From a virus: 49,393 nt of DNA. The notes beneath the pieces are model-generated. The model saw only the letters and a list, made by a program, of their open reading frames with translations, was not told where the DNA came from and did not search any database. Both the position numbers and the translations under genes were made by a program. Each line of letters begins with the position of its first letter. The first letter of the stretch is position 1. Where the stretch lies: the IMG/VR virus record IMGVR_UViG_3300027708_000107, positions 1 to 49,393 of that record. One strand, given 5' to 3'. Of this stretch, positions 6,580-19,822 are shown in pieces.

Positions 6580-7053
6580 TTATGCGGCAATTTCTTCCGG
6601 AATATCCATAATATTGCTAGCCTTAACCGTAAAGCAAGCGAGAGGATTTTCGGGATTAAGAATCTGGGATGCAGCAGATGGCGTCAGATATTCACAGAAT
6701 TTCGTAATATCAACTTCGACGGAATTCACAAAATACTTAATGATCGTCTTGTGGCTTGAAGGATACAGCCGGATGTAAGTTTCAGATTTATGAGTGATCA
6801 GATACGGGAATTGTTCCCATTGTCCCCATGGGAGTTCTTGAACTTCTCCACGAGTACCGTCTTTAATTCCCTCTTGAACTGAAGCAAGATTTGAATAATC
6901 AATTCCTGCACGAACTACTCCGATAGAAACTTTTTCAAGGATAGTTCCTTTAAACAGGGCTTTTGGTGTAGGATTAGACTTCCAGGAAGCCTTAACAAAT
7001 TGACCTTTGGACTTTAGGATCTTGCTTAGAATTTCTTGAGCAGTAATTTTCAT
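6580..7053 (-). CDS. hypothetical early protein
   Basis: A 157-residue protein starting MKITAQEILSKILKSKGQF. It is the first gene after the promoter at 7082-7110, so it heads a minus-strand early operon that continues leftwards. The mixed sequence has no membrane segment and no motif that I recognise. Confidence 0.75.
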   Translation of the reverse strand: MKITAQEILSKILKSKGQFVKASWKSNPTPKALFKGTILEKVSIGVVRAGIDYSNLASVQEGIKDGTRGEVQELPWGQWEQFPYLITHKSETYIRLYPSSHKTIIKYFVNSVEVDITKFCEYLTPSAASQILNPENPLACFTVKASNIMDIPEEIAA

Positions 7054-7081
7054 GGTGTGATTGAGGTTTCCTTACAGGCTC

Positions 7082-7110
7082 AATATACACCAAAATCGGT
7101 CCCATGTAAA
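7082..7110 (-). promoter_or_regulatory. early sigma70-type promoter
   Basis: TTTACA, 17 bp, TATATT on the minus strand, with the shared upstream ACTTTTTTG and downstream GAGCCTGTAAGG. It lies about 30 bp before the ATG at 7053. Confidence 0.9.
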
Positions 7111-7167
7111 CAAAAAAGTGGGTAAAGGCCGAAAATAAGTTGGATTTGTTGCAAATCAATGGGTTAT

Positions 7168-8204: not shown

Positions 8205-8212
8205 TATTTATA
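8205..8212 (-). promoter_or_regulatory. T4-type late promoter, 5 nt from ATG
   Basis: TATAAATA on the minus strand, five nucleotides before the ATG at 8199. It predicts a transcript starting at or within a base of the start codon. Confidence 0.75.
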
Positions 8213-9518: not shown

Positions 9519-10736
9519 TTAATCACGAAACGGATCTTCAATATCATCTCCCGCCATAGCAACGCCAATCGGAGTTAAGGTATGAAGAATCTTAATAGTT
9601 TCTCCTTGAGCAGACAACACTTCATTCAATCGCTTATAGCAATGCGGAGATTCATCAGTACCAGCACCACGAAGACAAACTCCTGCATTTTTAACCCAAT
9701 CAGTCATCATAGTCTGAGATACAACTCCTTCAGACACCCGAGTCTTCTTACCCTTGATCCATTTGGAGCGACCCGCAGCCTGCGACCTAGAGAGTACGCG
9801 ACCAGCTCCGTGAACTGTTGAGTACATTGCAATTTTTGATAGATCAGAATCAACACCTTCAAGAATAACAGAATCTTCTCCCATGGTACCACCAACAAAT
9901 CCTTTTTGACCAGGAAATGCGGGAGTTGCTCCTTTACGATGAACCCATAAATCTTCCCCATCATGATTTTCTAACCATGCAAAGTTATGATGATTATGAA
10001 CTTCTTCAAAAATTTCAACACCAAGGATTCGAGCAACTTCAGCACACACCCAGTCTCGTCCAGTGTAGGCATATTCTCCAGCTAATTTCAAGGCTGCAAT
10101 ATATTCACGCCCTAGATCAGAATTAACATCAAGCAAAGCAGGAGCTACATTGATGCCATCAGTGCCGCCACCAGCTTTGATATAATGAGATGCAATCTTA
10201 TGTCCAAGTCCTCGTGAACCAAAGTGAACACCTACCCAGATACGGAGAAATTCATCATGAAAAATATCAACGTAGTGATTCCCCGACCCAACAGTACCTA
10301 ACTGATTACGAGCCATATCTTTGAGATCATTGAGTAAAGGAATATCATTCCATACAGGAGAATCAAATATAGCATGTTCATCGGGTTTCTTTTGTCTGAC
10401 AATATGTTTAGAATTTGAAACACGTCCAATACCAAATGAGATATTACGAACAATTGTATCCATGATTTTTTCAATATCCTTATGAACATCAAGGAGAGTT
10501 GCATTAGTCAGAACAGCTAAGTTTCCGCATGCACAATCAAATCCGACTGCTGATGGAGAAATCTTATCTTTGTAAGCAATAATTCCGCCAATTGGGATGG
10601 AATAACCTAAGTGGTGATCTCCTGCCAATACAGCTTTATATCCGCCGAAATCCATTGCAAAATCCATCTGGTCAATTGCATTTTGTAATGGTTCCCCAAA
10701 GACGGGAATATTTTTATTTTTACCTAGGAGTTGCAT
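9519..10736 (-). CDS. rtcB: RtcB-type RNA-splicing ligase
   Basis: A 405-residue protein with the RtcB signatures in order: AVLAGDHHLGYSIPIGG, AVGFDCACGN (metal-binding Asp/Cys), GTVGSGNHYVDI, VHFGSRGLGH, a HNHHNFAW segment, WVHRKGATPA and STVHGAGRVLSR, which contains the histidine that becomes guanylylated. RtcB joins 2',3'-cyclic phosphate or 3'-phosphate RNA ends to 5'-OH ends using GTP and Mn2+. In a phage carrying many tRNAs the likely job is repair of tRNAs cut by host anticodon nucleases. All catalytic motifs look intact. Confidence 0.92.
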   Translation of the reverse strand: MQLLGKNKNIPVFGEPLQNAIDQMDFAMDFGGYKAVLAGDHHLGYSIPIGGIIAYKDKISPSAVGFDCACGNLAVLTNATLLDVHKDIEKIMDTIVRNISFGIGRVSNSKHIVRQKKPDEHAIFDSPVWNDIPLLNDLKDMARNQLGTVGSGNHYVDIFHDEFLRIWVGVHFGSRGLGHKIASHYIKAGGGTDGINVAPALLDVNSDLGREYIAALKLAGEYAYTGRDWVCAEVARILGVEIFEEVHNHHNFAWLENHDGEDLWVHRKGATPAFPGQKGFVGGTMGEDSVILEGVDSDLSKIAMYSTVHGAGRVLSRSQAAGRSKWIKGKKTRVSEGVVSQTMMTDWVKNAGVCLRGAGTDESPHCYKRLNEVLSAQGETIKILHTLTPIGVAMAGDDIEDPFRD

Positions 10737-13094: not shown

Positions 13095-13126
13095 GGTGTG
13101 TTGTGGTTGGTGTTCCTTACGGGATC

Positions 13127-13155
13127 AATATACCACAAAAACCGGGATCTGTAAA
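13127..13155 (-). promoter_or_regulatory. early sigma70-type promoter
   Basis: TTTACA, 17 bp, TATATT on the minus strand with GCACTTTTTTG upstream and GATCCCGTAAGG downstream. It lies about 33 bp before ATG 13094. Confidence 0.9.
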
Positions 13156-13230
13156 CAAAAAAGTGCATAAAAATGTGAAAATAAATTAAGTCATTGATTT
13201 GCAACAAGTTACGGTTTCAATTTTAAACAC

Positions 13231-15491: not shown

Positions 15492-15565
15492 TGGCATAGC
15501 ATGTAGGTAACGATCCCACGCCAAGAAGTTTGGAATTTCTGGTTCTACCATTGAACTAATGCTAT
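15492..15565 (-). tRNA. tRNA-Trp(CCA)
   Basis: Acceptor ATAGCAT/ATGCTAT (7 bp), discriminator G, encoded CCA, D-arm GTTC/GAAC, anticodon loop TTCCAAA. The T-loop is ATCGTTA instead of TTCRANY. Confidence 0.8.
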
Positions 15566-15574
15566 ATTTAAAAA

Positions 15575-15647
15575 TGGTCCGCGCCATGCCAACGCACATG
15601 GATAGGCAGATTCGCAGTCTGCGACATTACTCTTATGCTACGCTCGG
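15575..15647 (-). tRNA. tRNA-like, anticodon GCG (Arg), degenerate
   Basis: Anticodon arm GCAGA/TCTGC with loop CTGCGAA and D-stem GCAT/ATGT are good; CCA is encoded. The acceptor has mismatches and the T-loop has eight bases (TGCGTTGG). Function doubtful. Confidence 0.5.
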
Positions 15648-15655
15648 TTTAAAAT

Positions 15656-15730
15656 TGGTGCCTCTAGTAGGAGTTCAACCTACTTCATCAGTTTCGAAGA
15701 CTGAGGTCCTATTCGGTAGACGATAGAGGC
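15656..15730 (-). tRNA. tRNA-Arg(TCG)
   Basis: Acceptor GCCTCTA/TAGAGGC with ACCA, D-stem GTCT/GGAC, anticodon stem TCAGT/ACTGA, loop CTTCGAA (anticodon TCG), T-stem GTAGG/CCTAC. Decodes CGA. Confidence 0.85.
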
Positions 15731-15739
15731 ATATGAAAA

Positions 15740-15964
15740 TTACTCATTAGACAAACTATATGAATGCACTGCATTATAACCTGCAATCCAAATTCCAAGA
15801 ACATGTTCAAGATTTTCTGGAGTTGTTTCAAGATTTAATTTTTTAAGAACCTTCTTAATAATATTTTTATCTACTTGAGTCAATCCCATGAAATTATGAA
15901 CTAATCCACCTCTTTCTGATAAGACAGCTTCAGCGGCTTCTGATATTGATGATCGTTGTAACAT
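15740..15964 (-). CDS. small late protein with leader-like N-terminus
   Basis: A 74-residue protein from ATG 15964 (MLQRSSISEAAEAVLSERGG); a longer frame exists, but this ATG is 5 nt after a TATAAATA box and the N-terminus shares the 'EAAEAxL' pattern of other late genes, with LSE/R. The rest is helical (VDKNIIKKVLKKLNLE, then HVLGIWIAGYNAV). It sits inside the tRNA block. Role unknown. Confidence 0.65.
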   Translation of the reverse strand: MLQRSSISEAAEAVLSERGGLVHNFMGLTQVDKNIIKKVLKKLNLETTPENLEHVLGIWIAGYNAVHSYSLSNE

Positions 15965-15969
15965 AATAT

Positions 15970-15977
15970 TATTTATA
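15970..15977 (-). promoter_or_regulatory. T4-type late promoter, 5 nt from ATG
   Basis: TATAAATA on the minus strand, 5 nt before ATG 15964; it decides the start of that gene. Confidence 0.75.
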
Positions 15978-16020
15978 TATTTTGAGAAACTTTCTATTGC
16001 TGGATAGAACATGAAATTAA

Positions 16021-16115
16021 TTCCTATGTCCTGAATCTAACAGATCAAGATAAGGCATACAAGCCACAAGCTACCCGTTCTACATATAGTGTCGGACCTC
16101 TTGAATAACATAAGA
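16021..16115 (-). ncRNA. tRNA-like element, identity unclear
   Basis: Ends pair as TCTTATG/CATAGGA (7 bp plus one more). A T-arm-like stem CTTGA/TCAGG has a 10-nt loop and a GGC/GCC mini-stem sits in the middle. No CCA. A normal anticodon arm cannot be drawn. Confidence 0.35.
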
Positions 16116-16119
16116 AAAA

Positions 16120-16195
16120 TGGCGGAACCGACCAGTTTTGATCTGGCTGCCTCCTAAGTGACAGTTAGGTGCTCTCCCGATTGAGCTACGGTTCC
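16120..16195 (-). tRNA. tRNA-Asp(GTC)
   Basis: Acceptor GGAACCG/CGGTTCC, G, CCA encoded; anticodon stem CCTAA/TTAGG with loop CTGTCAC; T-stem GCCAG/CTGGT with loop ATCAAAA. Confidence 0.9.
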
Positions 16196-16201
16196 GTAAA
16201 G

Positions 16202-16276
16202 TGGTCCCGGTGGAGAATTTTGAAATCTCAACCTATCGCTTATCGAGCAATTACTCTGCCTTTGAGTTACACCGGG
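16202..16276 (-). tRNA. tRNA-Ile(GAT)
   Basis: Acceptor CCCGGTG/CACCGGG, A, CCA encoded; D-stem ACTC/GAGT; anticodon stem ATTGC/GCGAT with loop TCGATAA. Position 33 is C instead of U, which is unusual. Confidence 0.7.
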
Positions 16277-16286
16277 AATTAAAAAG

Positions 16287-16360
16287 TGGTACTCCTAACC
16301 GGGCACGATCCGGTCTCTAATCCTTGAAAGGGATTTGTTCTACCGCTAAACTATAGGAGC
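16287..16360 (-). tRNA. tRNA-Glu(TTC)
   Basis: Acceptor GCTCCTA/TAGGAGT, A, CCA encoded; anticodon stem AATCC/GGATT with loop CTTTCAA; T-stem ACCGG/CCGGT with loop ATCGTGC. Confidence 0.85.
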
Positions 16361-16374
16361 ATATTGAAAATTTA

Positions 16375-16478
16375 ATTAGTGTTGAAAGAATCAAACTTTC
16401 TCTTCAGTAATTGTTTACTAATCCTATCGGACAAGAAACCCTTTGCTAGGGGCGTGCTATCATTACACTAAACACTAA
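16375..16478 (-). tRNA. class II tRNA, anticodon uncertain
   Basis: Acceptor TTAGTGT/ACACTAA and a perfect T-arm GAAAG TTTGATT CTTTC. A long variable region holds TCC/GGA and AGTAA/TTACT stems. The anticodon arm around CCCCTAGCAAAGGG cannot be drawn uniquely. No CCA is encoded. Confidence 0.5.
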
Positions 16479-16480
16479 AT

Positions 16481-16572
16481 TGGCGGAAGAAGTGAGATTT
16501 GAACTCACGGGAGTTTTAAGGCTCCTCTAGTTTTCAAGACTAGCGCAATAAACCAGGCTCTGCCATCCTTCC
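16481..16572 (-). tRNA. tRNA-Ser(TGA)
   Basis: Acceptor GGAAGGA/TTCTTCC, G, CCA encoded; anticodon stem CTAGT/ACTAG with loop CTTGAAA; long variable arm; T-stem GTGAG/CTCAC with canonical loop TTCAAAT. Confidence 0.9.
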
Positions 16573-16580
16573 ATTAAAAT

Positions 16581-16654
16581 TGGTGCCCCTAGCAGGAATT
16601 AAACCTACGTTCTCGCTTTAGAAGAGCGGAGTCCTTTCATTAGACGATAAGGGC
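16581..16654 (-). tRNA. tRNA-Arg(TCT)
   Basis: Acceptor GCCCTTA/TAGGGGC, A, CCA encoded; D-stem GTCT/GGAC; loop CTTCTAA; T-stem GTAGG/CCTGC. Decodes AGA, useful in an AT-rich genome. Confidence 0.9.
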
Positions 16655-16667
16655 CATATATTAAAAT

Positions 16668-16742
16668 TGGTACACCCGCCGATAATCGAAATCGGTTAGT
16701 CGGATTAAAAGTCCGGTACATCGCCAGCAATGTTTCGAGTGC
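16668..16742 (-). tRNA. tRNA-Lys(TTT)
   Basis: Acceptor GCACTCG/CGGGTGT, A, CCA encoded; D-stem ACAT/ATGT; loop CTTTTAA; T-stem CCGAT/ATCGG with canonical loop TTCGATT. Confidence 0.9.
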
Positions 16743-16769
16743 ATTTTTGAAAATTAAAAAAGATGATAT

Positions 16770-16832
16770 TGTGAGTGCAGATTTGAACTGCTCTTCCCCT
16801 TAGGATGTGCTTCCGAGTTACACCATATTCAC
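16770..16832 (-). ncRNA. truncated tRNA-like element
   Basis: A good T-arm GCAG TTCAAAT CTGC and D-arm GTGT/GCAC, but only about 63 nt, no proper anticodon arm and a mismatched acceptor. Probably a decayed tRNA. Confidence 0.4.
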
Positions 16833-16841
16833 TCATCATCA

Positions 16842-16907
16842 GAGAGTCACTCAAACATTTGTACTTCATGTTTGGCATTGGTAATTACTCAATGCAAAGT
16901 GACTCTC
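16842..16907 (-). ncRNA. three-way-junction RNA
   Basis: A perfect 10-bp closing stem GAGAGTCACT/AGTGACTCTC encloses two hairpins: GCATTG/CAATGC with a 9-nt loop and CAAACAT/ATGTTTG with a 9-nt loop. All three helices are perfect. It lies within the tRNA run but has no tRNA features. Confidence 0.6.
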
Positions 16908-16918
16908 GTTAAAATTAA

Positions 16919-17095
16919 TTCTGTATGTATATGAACTTTTCTACGCCTCTTCGGTTTTAACTACTTTGCAGTTTATTAGGAATTGCGAACCTAATAAGAG
17001 TATTCGTTATTAATCTAAAGGAACTCATCGCATTGAGTTTCTCCAACGTATTTCATTGTTTGTACCTTATTGCTAAGGTTTTTTGCCATACAGAA
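16919..17095 (-). ncRNA. 177-nt multi-helix RNA
   Basis: Ends pair as TTCTGTATG/CATACAGAA (9 bp). Inside are ACCTTA GCAA TAAGGT (GNRA loop), AACTCA ATGCGA TGAGTT, and TTATTAGG TTCGCAATT CCTAATAA. No ORF. The layout is that of a compact folded RNA; I know no family that it matches. Confidence 0.6.
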
Positions 17096-17102
17096 AAAGG
17101 GA

Positions 17103-17174
17103 CTCCCAAGGTTGGTAACGCTCCAACTACCTAGTGTTTAACAGACACCCGCTCTGCTAGTGAGCTACTTGGGA
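17103..17174 (-). tRNA. tRNA-Asn(GTT)
   Basis: Acceptor TCCCAAG/CTTGGGA; D-stem GCTC/GAGC; anticodon stem GGTGT/ACACT with loop CTGTTAA; T-stem GTTGG/CCAAC with noncanonical loop AGCGTTA. CCA not encoded. Confidence 0.85.
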
Positions 17175-17182
17175 TTTAAAAA

Positions 17183-17269
17183 TGGTGGGTACCGGACGTT
17201 ACGCTCGTCTCCCCCGTGAAAGGAAGTGTTTTACAGACACTCTTCAGGAACTACCTGATTTCGTTACCC
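17183..17269 (-). tRNA. tRNA-Tyr(GTA)
   Basis: Acceptor GGGTAAC/GGTACCC (one mismatch), A, CCA encoded; anticodon stem AGTGT/ACACT with loop CTGTAAA; long variable arm as expected for bacterial Tyr; T-loop AGCGTAA is noncanonical. Confidence 0.85.
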
Positions 17270-17277
17270 ATGAAAGT

Positions 17278-17285
17278 TATTTATA
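17278..17285 (-). promoter_or_regulatory. T4-type late promoter at tRNA-Tyr
   Basis: TATAAATA on the minus strand, 8 nt before the 5' end of tRNA-Tyr, so transcription would start almost at the mature 5' end. Confidence 0.65.
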
Positions 17286-17301
17286 CAGAAAGAAAGTGGC
17301 A

Positions 17302-17388
17302 AGCTGAAGGTGAGATTCGAACTCACGTGAGGAATTGAATCCTTCCTGATTACAAAACAGGCGCCATCGACCACTAAGCGACTCCAGC
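17302..17388 (-). tRNA. tRNA-Thr(TGT) with class II variable arm
   Basis: Acceptor GCTGGAG/CTTCAGC; anticodon arm CCTGT TTTGTAA TCAGG; T-arm GTGAG TTCGAAT CTCAC is perfect. An 18-nt variable region with AGGA/TCCT is a class II arm, abnormal for threonine. No CCA. Its first 15 bases overlap the end of the HNH gene. Confidence 0.7.
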
Positions 17389-18087
17389 ATTATTATATAA
17401 TTCAAAAAATTTCTTAAAAATAGGACCATTAAAGGATATACCTATAGTACTAAATGCTTTACTCAAAACCCCATGTTTATCGTACTCTATTTTAAGGGCT
17501 TCAAAATTATCTTTAACTATATTAGGTTTTGCTAAACATTCACACTTTCTAGAACAAAATCGCCTGGGGTATTTATTGGCAAATCGTTTTGAACAATTAT
17601 CACATATATATTGAAGCTCGAATTCTTTCCACTTATTACGACCTTTCACCCACCCAACAGGTATCGGAATCAATCTATTTACGCAAATATTTTCTTTTAA
17701 TTCTATATTCGATATAAAATGATTTCCGAAATTTGGGTTACGGTCTCCTTTATTTGCTATTTTCATTATCTCAGATGTATATTTCGCGCATTCAATCCTA
17801 ATCCATTCATACAATCTGGCCGATTTTATAAAAGGTTTATCAGGATCATTCGAATTCTTTCTTTGCATATTATGCAGTGCGAATGAATTTTGAGAGCATC
17901 TTTGAAATCTTGCAAGTAACAAATGAGCCATATAATGTTCTCTCGCAGTCAAATTTACTCTATTGTGTTTATCATCAGAACCACCTAAAGATGATGGGAT
18001 TATATGATGATTTTCCTTGTATCCAGAAGTTACTGGATTTTGTTGCCGATTTAATATAAGATCGTTATAGATTTTTTCATAGTTCAT
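17374..18087 (-). CDS. HNH homing-type endonuclease
   Basis: A 237-residue protein. Residues about 22-56 (KENHHIIPSSLGGSDDKHN, then RVNLTAREHYMAHLLL) are an HNH nuclease core. Near residue 160, CDNC...CSRKC forms a zinc-finger-like unit. Such free-standing nucleases cut DNA lacking their gene and spread by repair. The gene ends at a TAG inside the D-arm of tRNA-Thr, so it is inserted flush with the tRNA. A late promoter is 6 nt before the ATG. Confidence 0.85.
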   Translation of the reverse strand: MNYEKIYNDLILNRQQNPVTSGYKENHHIIPSSLGGSDDKHNRVNLTAREHYMAHLLLARFQRCSQNSFALHNMQRKNSNDPDKPFIKSARLYEWIRIECAKYTSEIMKIANKGDRNPNFGNHFISNIELKENICVNRLIPIPVGWVKGRNKWKEFELQYICDNCSKRFANKYPRRFCSRKCECLAKPNIVKDNFEALKIEYDKHGVLSKAFSTIGISFNGPIFKKFFELYNNAGVA

Positions 18088-18093
18088 ATAATC

Positions 18094-18101
18094 TATTTAT
18101 A
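18094..18101 (-). promoter_or_regulatory. T4-type late promoter, 6 nt from ATG
   Basis: TATAAATA on the minus strand before ATG 18087 of the HNH gene. Confidence 0.7.
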
Positions 18102-18114
18102 CTGAACTTACACT

Positions 18115-18182
18115 ACCAAATTACAAATATTGCACTGCACTAGCCGGAGTACAAAACCGGTTCATCGCTATCTATGATTTGG
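18115..18182 (-). ncRNA. tRNA-like element, Thr-like anticodon arm
   Basis: Ends pair as CCAAAT/ATTTGG; a CCGG/CCGG stem holds TTTTGTACT, which resembles the Thr(TGT) loop nearby. D and T arms are poor. Probably a decayed tRNA. Confidence 0.35.
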
Positions 18183-18276
18183 AAGCATATAGAAAATGTT
18201 CGAGTTGCAGTTTAATGCTGTAGGGACCCGTCGCTCCTGTAAGGCAATGCACCACACATTGCAGATTATTTGAAAA
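18183..18276 (-). other. non-coding stretch, decayed tRNA-like
   Basis: Contains GCAATG/CATTGC with a 7-nt loop and a CTACAG/CTGCAA arm, but no complete tRNA can be drawn and no ORF is present. Confidence 0.3.
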
Positions 18277-18353
18277 TGGTTGCGGATGCATTCTCTGCCC
18301 ATGCGATCTTCGCCTTATGAGGACGACGAGATGACTGGATTCTCCAATCCGCG
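18277..18353 (-). tRNA. initiator tRNA-fMet(CAT)
   Basis: A 77-nt tRNA starting CGCGGATTGGAG and ending ATCCGCAACCA. The first base C and the opposite A are unpaired (C1 x A72), the defining feature of bacterial initiator tRNA. Length and layout match E. coli tRNA-fMet, with anticodon stem TCGTC/GGCGA and loop CTCATAA. The T-loop (GGCAGAG) is not canonical and the T-stem has one mismatch. Confidence 0.85.
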
Positions 18354-18361
18354 ATTATAGT

Positions 18362-18369
18362 TATTTATA
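18362..18369 (-). promoter_or_regulatory. T4-type late promoter at tRNA-fMet
   Basis: TATAAATA on the minus strand, 8 nt before the 5' end of the initiator tRNA. Confidence 0.65.
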
Positions 18370-18381
18370 TCAAACAAAAAA

Positions 18382-18456
18382 TGGTCCCCCCGGTTGGTGC
18401 TGCCCCAACGACCTACCGATTATGAGTCGGGTGCTCTCCTGTTGAGCTACAGGGGG
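18382..18456 (-). tRNA. tRNA-Met(CAT), elongator-type or Ile2
   Basis: Acceptor CCCCCTG/CGGGGGG, A, CCA encoded; D-stem GCTC/GAGC; loop CTCATAA; T-stem GTTGG/CCAAC with loop GGCAGCA. The fully paired acceptor makes it an elongator; a lysidine-modified Ile tRNA is the alternative. Confidence 0.85.
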
Positions 18457-18642
18457 ATATATATAACCTCTGAGGATTCCTGTACCCCGATTATTTCATA
18501 CCGACCGAGTTATGTCGGAATCTTGAATGTTTTCTCTGTGATTGATTCGAACAATCCCATCTTTCATCGTCACTCTATACTGCAAGGACGAGTTGAACGT
18601 CACCAATGTGTCATATTGCTCACCATGAGCTTCAAAGAAAAT
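18457..18642 (-). other. non-coding stretch with a lone canonical T-arm
   Basis: A perfect T-arm GATTG TTCGAAT CAATC lies at 18540-18556, and TTTCTTTG...CAGAGAAA could close an acceptor, with GCTC/GAGC as D-arm. The middle is too long for a tRNA. Likely a decayed or insertion-bearing class II tRNA. Confidence 0.35.
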
Positions 18643-18730
18643 TGGTACCGATGACGCGATTTGAACACACAAACTATTTAAAACGTGGGTTTTTAAGACC
18701 CAAGTGTATTTCCAGTTCCAACACATCGGT
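18643..18730 (-). tRNA. tRNA-Leu(TAA)
   Basis: Acceptor ACCGATG/CATCGGT, A, CCA encoded; anticodon stem TGGGT/ACCCA with loop CTTAAAA; class II variable arm; T-loop TTCAAAT. Decodes UUA. Confidence 0.85.
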
Positions 18731-19703: not shown

Positions 19704-19724
19704 AGTCGGTTTCGTTATGGGCTT

Positions 19725-19753
19725 AATATACACCAAAATTCGGTCCGTGTAAA
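19725..19753 (-). promoter_or_regulatory. early sigma70-type promoter
   Basis: TTTACA, 17 bp, TATATT on the minus strand with the shared flanks; 22 bp before ATG 19703. Confidence 0.9.
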
Positions 19754-19822
19754 CAAAAAAGTACGTAAAAGGAGAAAATAATTTAATTCCCTTGATTTCC
19801 AATGGGTTACGGCGACGAAAAT

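Follow-up and report, generated by a model that had tools for sequence, protein, structure and literature searches.

A divergent initiator-type tRNA with a non-canonical elbow in the tRNA cluster of a T4-related phage

A 77-nt gene carried by a T4-related phage is best explained as a genuine, divergent initiator tRNA, which would supply or replace fMet-tRNA late in infection and whose elbow follows a code that covaries across many phage tRNAs; judging from the sequence, we consider this reading fairly probable. The DNA is IMG/VR record IMGVR_UViG_3300027708_000107, and "the window" refers to the whole stretch of 49,393 nucleotides that was analysed. It encodes UvsX, a DnaB-like helicase, NrdA and RtcB; baseplate and tail genes are found on another, longer contig of this virus. 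Phage initiator-like tRNAs are already known as a kind; the elbow is the feature that an earlier note on this DNA did not notice.

Gene call and detectability

18277–18353, minus strand: initiator-type tRNA gene, 77 nt, anticodon CAU at 18319–18317, encoded CCA, C1 at 18353 and A72 at 18281 (sequence, cloverleaf scan and covariance model)

Read on the minus strand from 18353 to 18277, the gene is CGCGGAT TG GAGA ATCCAGTCA TCTC G TCGTC CTCATAA GGCGA AGATC GCATG GGCAGAG AATGC ATCCGCA ACCA. The earlier note had placed it exactly, without stating the strand. A cloverleaf scan that does not require a standard T-loop gives it a score of 43, and nothing of 36 or more was found in two shuffled windows. 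The top match in the window to a covariance model made from 33 other initiator tRNAs, without the window tRNA itself, is this gene (62.1 bits, E=1.6e-13). The cloverleaf stems covary across these 33 initiators (0.557, versus 0.140 after shuffling); the elbow pairs counted on the MAFFT alignment of the initiators are uninformative, because D-loops of unequal length are misaligned.

The same virus population is represented by a second contig, L020 (109 kb), which contains the identical tRNA and is 99.98% identical to the window over 20.7 kb. The locus is not covered by either of the two remaining contigs of the virus, recovered from different samples, so that confirmation amounts to one further assembly only. 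The comparison with L020 also revealed dispersed repeats of about 60–100 bp, 76–89% alike, at 249–314, 7050–7141, 13107–13172 and 19708–19812.

ARAGORN, which lists eight tRNAs in the window, does not detect the gene, nor does Rfam at a relaxed threshold (E up to 1), which finds 12 tRNAs in the region: the gene does not reach the level at which RF00005 or ARAGORN recognizes a canonical tRNA. Such finders miss the phage initiator tRNA because the contacts at its elbow are replaced by others, which change in concert in many phage tRNAs. A BLASTN search of the tRNA against annotated phages gave no match. The minimum free energy fold is not the cloverleaf (−22.2 versus −18.2 kcal/mol for the cloverleaf), and a similar gap exists for tRNAs that are detected, such as those for Ser and Thr; folding by itself neither supports nor refutes the assignment.

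The tRNA cluster and its neighbourhood

15492–18730, minus strand: cluster of 13 tRNA genes (Trp, Arg-UCG, Asp, Ile-GAU, Glu, Ser, Arg-UCU, Lys, Asn, Thr, fMet, Ile2, Leu; ARAGORN 8, Rfam 12, relaxed cloverleaf scan)
17103–17174, minus strand: tRNA-Asn (GUU) with a rewired elbow, A18·G55 and A54·U58 (ARAGORN, cloverleaf scan)
17374–18087, minus strand: HNH homing endonuclease inside the tRNA cluster (PHROGs)
18383–18456, minus strand: second CAU tRNA, probably tRNA-Ile2 (Rfam 49.0 bits, cloverleaf scan; missed by ARAGORN)

The cluster is broken up by open reading frames, the HNH homing endonuclease among them. The 5' part of the latter is about 70% identical to DNA that lies next to nrdA in T4-like coliphages, and the end of the endonuclease gene overlaps with tRNA-Thr. 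The tRNA-Ile(GAU) at 16205–16276 (minus strand) has C33 instead of the near-universal U33; it is missed by ARAGORN and detected by Rfam. About 5 kb from the cluster, an RtcB-type RNA ligase (9519–10736, minus strand) is a candidate tRNA-repair enzyme.

The second CAU tRNA is of the elongator type (C11:G24, positions 1 and 72 paired), and its acceptor and anticodon stems suggest that it is probably tRNA-Ile2.

Initiator identity

In E. coli tRNA-fMet, C1·A72, the pairs 2–71 to 4–69, A11:U24, the CAU loop, A73 and CCA are determinants for formylase, MetRS and initiator selection. The window tRNA shares this set with E. coli tRNA-fMet: the CGCGG acceptor (within CGCGGAT/ATCCGCA) with C1·A72, as the earlier note had read it, the formylase determinants G2–C71, C3–G70 and G4–C69 next to the unpaired 1–72, a purine 11:pyrimidine 24 combination in the form of A11:U24, a CUCAUAA anticodon loop with CAU, A73 and an encoded CCA.

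It differs from its E. coli counterpart in the lack of G29G30G31/CCC, of G18G19 and of a TUC T-loop, and in having a G53·A61 mismatch and a phage late box. The "general layout" of tRNA-fMet that had been attributed to it hence holds for the acceptor and the other features shared with tRNA-fMet, but neither for the elbow formed by the D-loop and the T-loop nor for the three G–C pairs of the anticodon stem. Instead of the latter, 29–41, 30–40 and 31–39 are G–C, U·G and C–G, which should weaken P-site selection. Among the 33 initiators, position 29 varies in most, while 30–40 is G–C in 28/33 and 31–39 in 25/33. G53·A61, which closes the T-loop, occurs in one of 752 viral tRNAs; a mismatch so rare means that the window copy could be partly degenerate.

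With the same covariance model, the window initiator scores 62 bits and other phage initiators, several of which are in the model, 72–92 bits. The window's Ile2 reaches 53 bits, only 9 below the initiator; elongator-type CAU tRNAs read out from other phages score 36–56 bits. Because the G–C triplet is missing, the T-loop is closed by G53·A61 and the model score is intermediate, we describe the gene, with some caution, as initiator-type and not as a standard tRNA-fMet.

An elbow with replaced contacts

18332–18340, minus strand: D-loop ATCCAGTCA, with A18 (18336) and G19 (18335) replacing G18G19 (consistent with the code seen in 752 viral tRNAs)
18293–18299, minus strand: T-loop GGCAGAG, with G54·G58, G55 opposite A18, and C56 pairing with G19 (cloverleaf scan)

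The usual T-loop of tRNAs is UUCRANY, and the contacts G18–U55, G19–C56 and U54–A58 are described as near-universal. In the window initiator the elbow would be held by A18·G55, G19–C56 and G54·G58, among which only G19–C56 is canonical; the geometry of the A18·G55 and G54·G58 pairs is one that we infer. Positions 18 and 55 are changed together, 19–56 is kept as a Watson–Crick pair and 54·58 is G·G, which places the tRNA in a class of rewired elbows. The identical GGCAGAG loop, accompanied by an A18G19 D-loop, is found in the initiators of two other viral contigs (L335 and L360), and the D-loop type recurs in L360 (AGCCAGTTA).

Other tRNAs of the same cluster depart from the canonical elbow too. 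A18·G55 with G19–C56 is present in Ile2 (GGCAGCA/AACAGGA) and in Asn (AGCGUUA/ACUAGCA), and Arg-UCU (UUUAAUU/AAUGAAA) has A19–U56. Matches to Ile2 in Salmonella phage SenALZ1 and Serratia phage Kevin were set aside, their T-loops being ordinary. About four ordinary-looking tRNA genes of SenALZ1 (L670, MH709121.1 56406–59474) are absent from its GenBank annotation.

A covarying elbow code across viral tRNAs

The code was read from 752 distinct viral tRNAs with an encoded CCA, from 95 loci (L009–L312), using a scan that gives no bonus for GG or TUC; many of these loci were picked by the GGCAG pattern, and related loci are not independent. The D-loop dinucleotide follows positions 55 and 56 of the T-loop: UC goes with GG in 503/507 tRNAs, GC with AG in 168/174, UU with GA in 18/18 and UA with GU in 4/4. 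In the other classes, GA goes with AU in 3/3, GG with AC in 3/3, CC with GG in 21/25 and UG with GC in 5/9. When 18–19 may be whichever central dinucleotide of the D-loop matches, in the shuffles as in the real data, 227 of the 242 non-UC T-loops fit the simple code; 5000 shuffles gave 143.6 on average and never more than 162. For the rarest classes the figures are 38/46 versus a shuffle maximum of 26. The 18–55 combination can therefore be G·U, G–C or A·G, and 19–56 any Watson–Crick pair. The 54–58 combination is U–A in 574 of the 752 tRNAs, G·G in 96, A·U in 35 and A·A in 17, and G54 is coupled to G58, with 96 G·G versus two G54 facing another base.

Protein homology was used to choose a smaller set of 11 loci; non-UC T-loops are present in 28 of its 94 tRNAs, one contig dominating. 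All 18 scored CCA-encoding tRNAs of contig IMGVR_UViG_3300040946_000134 (L090, L093) have non-standard T-loops, including cases with A19–U56, U19–A56 and C19–G56. The change of elbow is seen in tRNAs of many amino acids. It strongly affects detection by ARAGORN, which finds 454 of 462 tRNAs with a UUC loop versus 7 of 85 with a GGC loop (78/85 missed).

The GGCAG loop is biased towards phages. The pattern TAGCTCA..GAGC..GGGGCAGNNCC, which contains a GGCAG T-loop, occurs in at least 119 viral contigs; it is absent from all 983 bacterial genomes scanned, which represent three phyla (399, 297 and 287 genomes). As a control, the matching UUC pattern is present in 21/21 genomes, at about 8–22 copies each.

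The odd T-loop of the window initiator had been considered as a mark of decay; this was set aside after the covariation between D-loops and T-loops had been tested. Since many phage tRNAs use the same covarying code, of which this loop represents one setting, we regard the loop as a structural alternative.

We found no description of such an elbow code in phages in the open literature, subscription journals being mostly outside the coverage. The Steinberg group reportedly obtained unusual D-loop/T-loop combinations in laboratory selections of suppressor tRNAs. We propose, tentatively and at slightly less than even confidence, that phages have evolved an alternative, self-consistent elbow (A18·G55, any Watson–Crick pair at 19–56, G54·G58), used with many amino-acid identities including the initiator and invisible to a standard gene finder. 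Because U54, U55 and G18 are lost, these tRNAs would not be substrates for the host enzymes that modify positions 54, 55 and 18, and this could help them escape host tRNA targeting or turnover.

Comparison with other initiator tRNAs

The earlier note had called phage initiator tRNAs uncommon, an overstatement given that E. coli tRNA-fMet has matches in 412 phage records; in 305 of these the match extends over at least 80% of the tRNA, and the set contains some bacterial contigs. The phage initiators that were read out mostly have A11:U24, and positions 1–72 are mismatched (AP1, ZS04, Myrna, a 634-kb phage) or U–A (CcrSC, CN1A, cr60_1, pEa_SNUABM_44). Like the window, Aeromonas phage AP1, Erythrobacter phage ZS04, Caulobacter phage CcrSC, mycobacteriophage Myrna, phi-pp2 and phiM12 have a phage CAU tRNA; most of these tRNAs have A11:U24, and in several 1–72 is weak or mismatched. 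They differ from the window tRNA by a canonical UUC T-loop and G18G19 in the cases read out, and most are annotated as tRNA-Met. We found no paper on the function of phage initiator tRNAs in the open literature (subscription journals are mostly outside the coverage).

The GGCAG initiators of four IMG/VR contigs (L360, L335, L206 and L306) share with the window both the 54–58 and the 18–55 substitutions, and A11:U24; none of them is detected by Rfam at the gathering threshold. They differ in that G53–C61 is intact, no late box is seen upstream, and 1–72 is U·U, U·C, A·A and U·U, respectively. Together with the window, these four are the only G54·G58 initiators among the matches listed, all in viruses.

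A18·G55 is not restricted to phages; the idea that it might be was ruled out by the initiators of Patescibacteria. Viral contigs contain at least about 95 distinct cloverleafs of G55 initiator-type tRNAs, nearly all with A18G19. In bacterial genomes, 97 of 117 loci among the matches listed for G55 initiators proved to be true CAU cloverleafs; most are from Patescibacteria, every one has UGC, and A18 is present in nearly all. The Patescibacteria initiators (L550–L664; T-loop UGC, D-loop AGUAGUA) thus share A18·G55 and G19–C56 with the window, but they keep U54–A58, and there is no GGCAG loop among the 102 G55 CAU tRNAs in the matches listed. The ratio of U55 to G55 initiators, 117:2 among the matches listed, was obtained with E. 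coli-like stems only and probably from a set rich in host-like contigs; no frequency was taken from it.

Eukaryotic initiator tRNAs have A1:U72. Like the window tRNA, they have a purine–purine 54–58 pair in the T-loop, in their case A54–A58, but they keep G18–U55 and belong to a different lineage. Such purine–purine pairs are known in eukaryotic initiator tRNA and in tRNA-Ala, and the tRNA-Ala study states that these unusual pairs were not seen in bacterial tRNAs (PMC7912444, PMC7566577).

A late box in front of the initiator tRNA

18362–18369, minus strand: T4-type late box TATAAATA, a putative promoter, which ends 8 nt upstream of C1 (sequence)

That the tRNA has its own late box 8 nt upstream was borne out: TATAAATA is at 18369–18362 on the minus strand. 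There are 28 such boxes on the tRNA's strand of the 109-kb contig; the chance that one ends 0–20 nt upstream of a random position is p=0.005, and 5–8 nt upstream, p=0.001. Only one of the 12 tRNAs checked, the initiator, has a box so placed. The T4 consensus suggests that the box would function as a promoter. T4-type late transcription starts about 6 nt after the box; a primary transcript started by the phage late transcription apparatus is predicted to begin about 2–3 nt upstream of the tRNA. The assignment of phrog_270 as the late sigma factor was a wrong guess.

Proposed role and alternatives

After such a start, RNase P would trim the tRNA end, and no addition of CCA would be needed since it is encoded. 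The host MetRS would charge the tRNA through CAU and A73, and the host formylase and IF2 would accept it through C1·A72, the 2–71 to 4–69 pairs and A11:U24, allowing the phage tRNA to supply or replace fMet-tRNA late in infection. We infer expression, charging, formylation, initiation and the benefit to the phage from the sequence.

AtaT-type acetyltransferases act on initiator tRNA. One possible, if unlikely, alternative is that the phage initiator serves to evade defence: it would replace host tRNA-fMet that has been blocked by such an enzyme or destroyed by a VapC-type PIN nuclease, with an altered anticodon stem and elbow that avoid recognition, while RtcB may repair cut tRNAs. The anticodon stem unlike that of the host type, the RtcB gene nearby and the phage bias of the rewired elbow agree with this idea, and phage tRNAs have been proposed to evade anticodon nucleases (PMC10264068, citing VapC cleavage of initiator tRNA). 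However, phages generally avoid encoding tRNA-fMet where it is the target of a VapC host nuclease (PMC10264068), and the change of elbow, which concerns tRNAs of many amino acids and extends, as regards G55, to the initiators of Patescibacteria, is therefore not specific to one toxin.

We consider it doubtful that the tRNA is made late to favour initiation at the 5'-AUG of leaderless late mRNAs. In the window, an ATG follows the box after 5 nt seven times and after 6 nt four times, versus 0.23 expected for each (11 versus 0.46); examples on the minus strand are at 8212, 9474, 14662, 15977, 18101, 25626, 29231, 30100, 33088 and 37138. There are 17 such sites in the 109-kb contig and 1–10 in related contigs (2–10 in those related by the DnaB-type helicase), and a Shine–Dalgarno motif is found in none of the 27 genes of the 109-kb contig that have a box close to their ATG. 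Late mRNAs should therefore be leaderless. The pattern is common to related contigs (G005, G016–G025) and absent from many other T4-like phages. The premise that leaderless mRNAs depend on initiator tRNA is sound, more fMet-tRNA strongly and selectively raising leaderless translation (PMC9031893), and the late box of the tRNA itself also speaks for this role. The earlier note had seen in the gene a fit to the box–ATG pattern of the late genes: the pattern stands and is shared by the clade, but a specific association of the tRNA with leaderless mRNAs is not supported. The initiator-bearing phages AP1, phi-pp2 and phiM12 have no box–ATG site at the 5-nt spacing, the only one searched, and there is none in L360, L335 and L206, whose initiators are the most similar. 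Conversely, no initiator was found in G017, G021 and G022, tRNA-bearing contigs of the leaderless clade that are fragments; in this clade, CAU tRNAs whose 1–72 is C·A or A·A are present in G018, G019 and G025. In this small sample of fragments, leaderless mRNAs and the initiator tRNA show no association across phages, and the link between them is weak.

It is improbable that the gene is a decaying pseudo-tRNA, that is, a captured initiator gene drifting without function. Loss of the G–C triplet, G53·A61 and a score below that of other phage initiators would be expected of such a relic, but the acceptor stem, D stem, anticodon loop and CCA are intact, the elbow departs from the canonical one in the same coordinated way as in hundreds of other phage tRNAs, the same loop recurs in two other phage initiators and the gene has its own late box. 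As for an elongator tRNA or a tRNA-Ile2 with an accidental 1–72 mismatch, the CAU anticodon and the fact that the initiator model scores elongators too are compatible with it, but both A11:U24 and the acceptor (CGCGG/CCGCA) are typical of initiators and the neighbouring CAU tRNA is already Ile2-like, which makes it very improbable.

Implications

If the gene is a divergent phage initiator tRNA, as we favour, it offers a way to ask whether phages seize control of translation initiation in late infection, here in a virus with leaderless-looking late mRNAs. Counts of phage tRNAs based on ARAGORN, and studies of tRNA repertoires, would miss members, initiators included. Coordinated natural replacements throughout phage tRNAs would also amount to a natural experiment on the role that the tRNA elbow has to fulfil.
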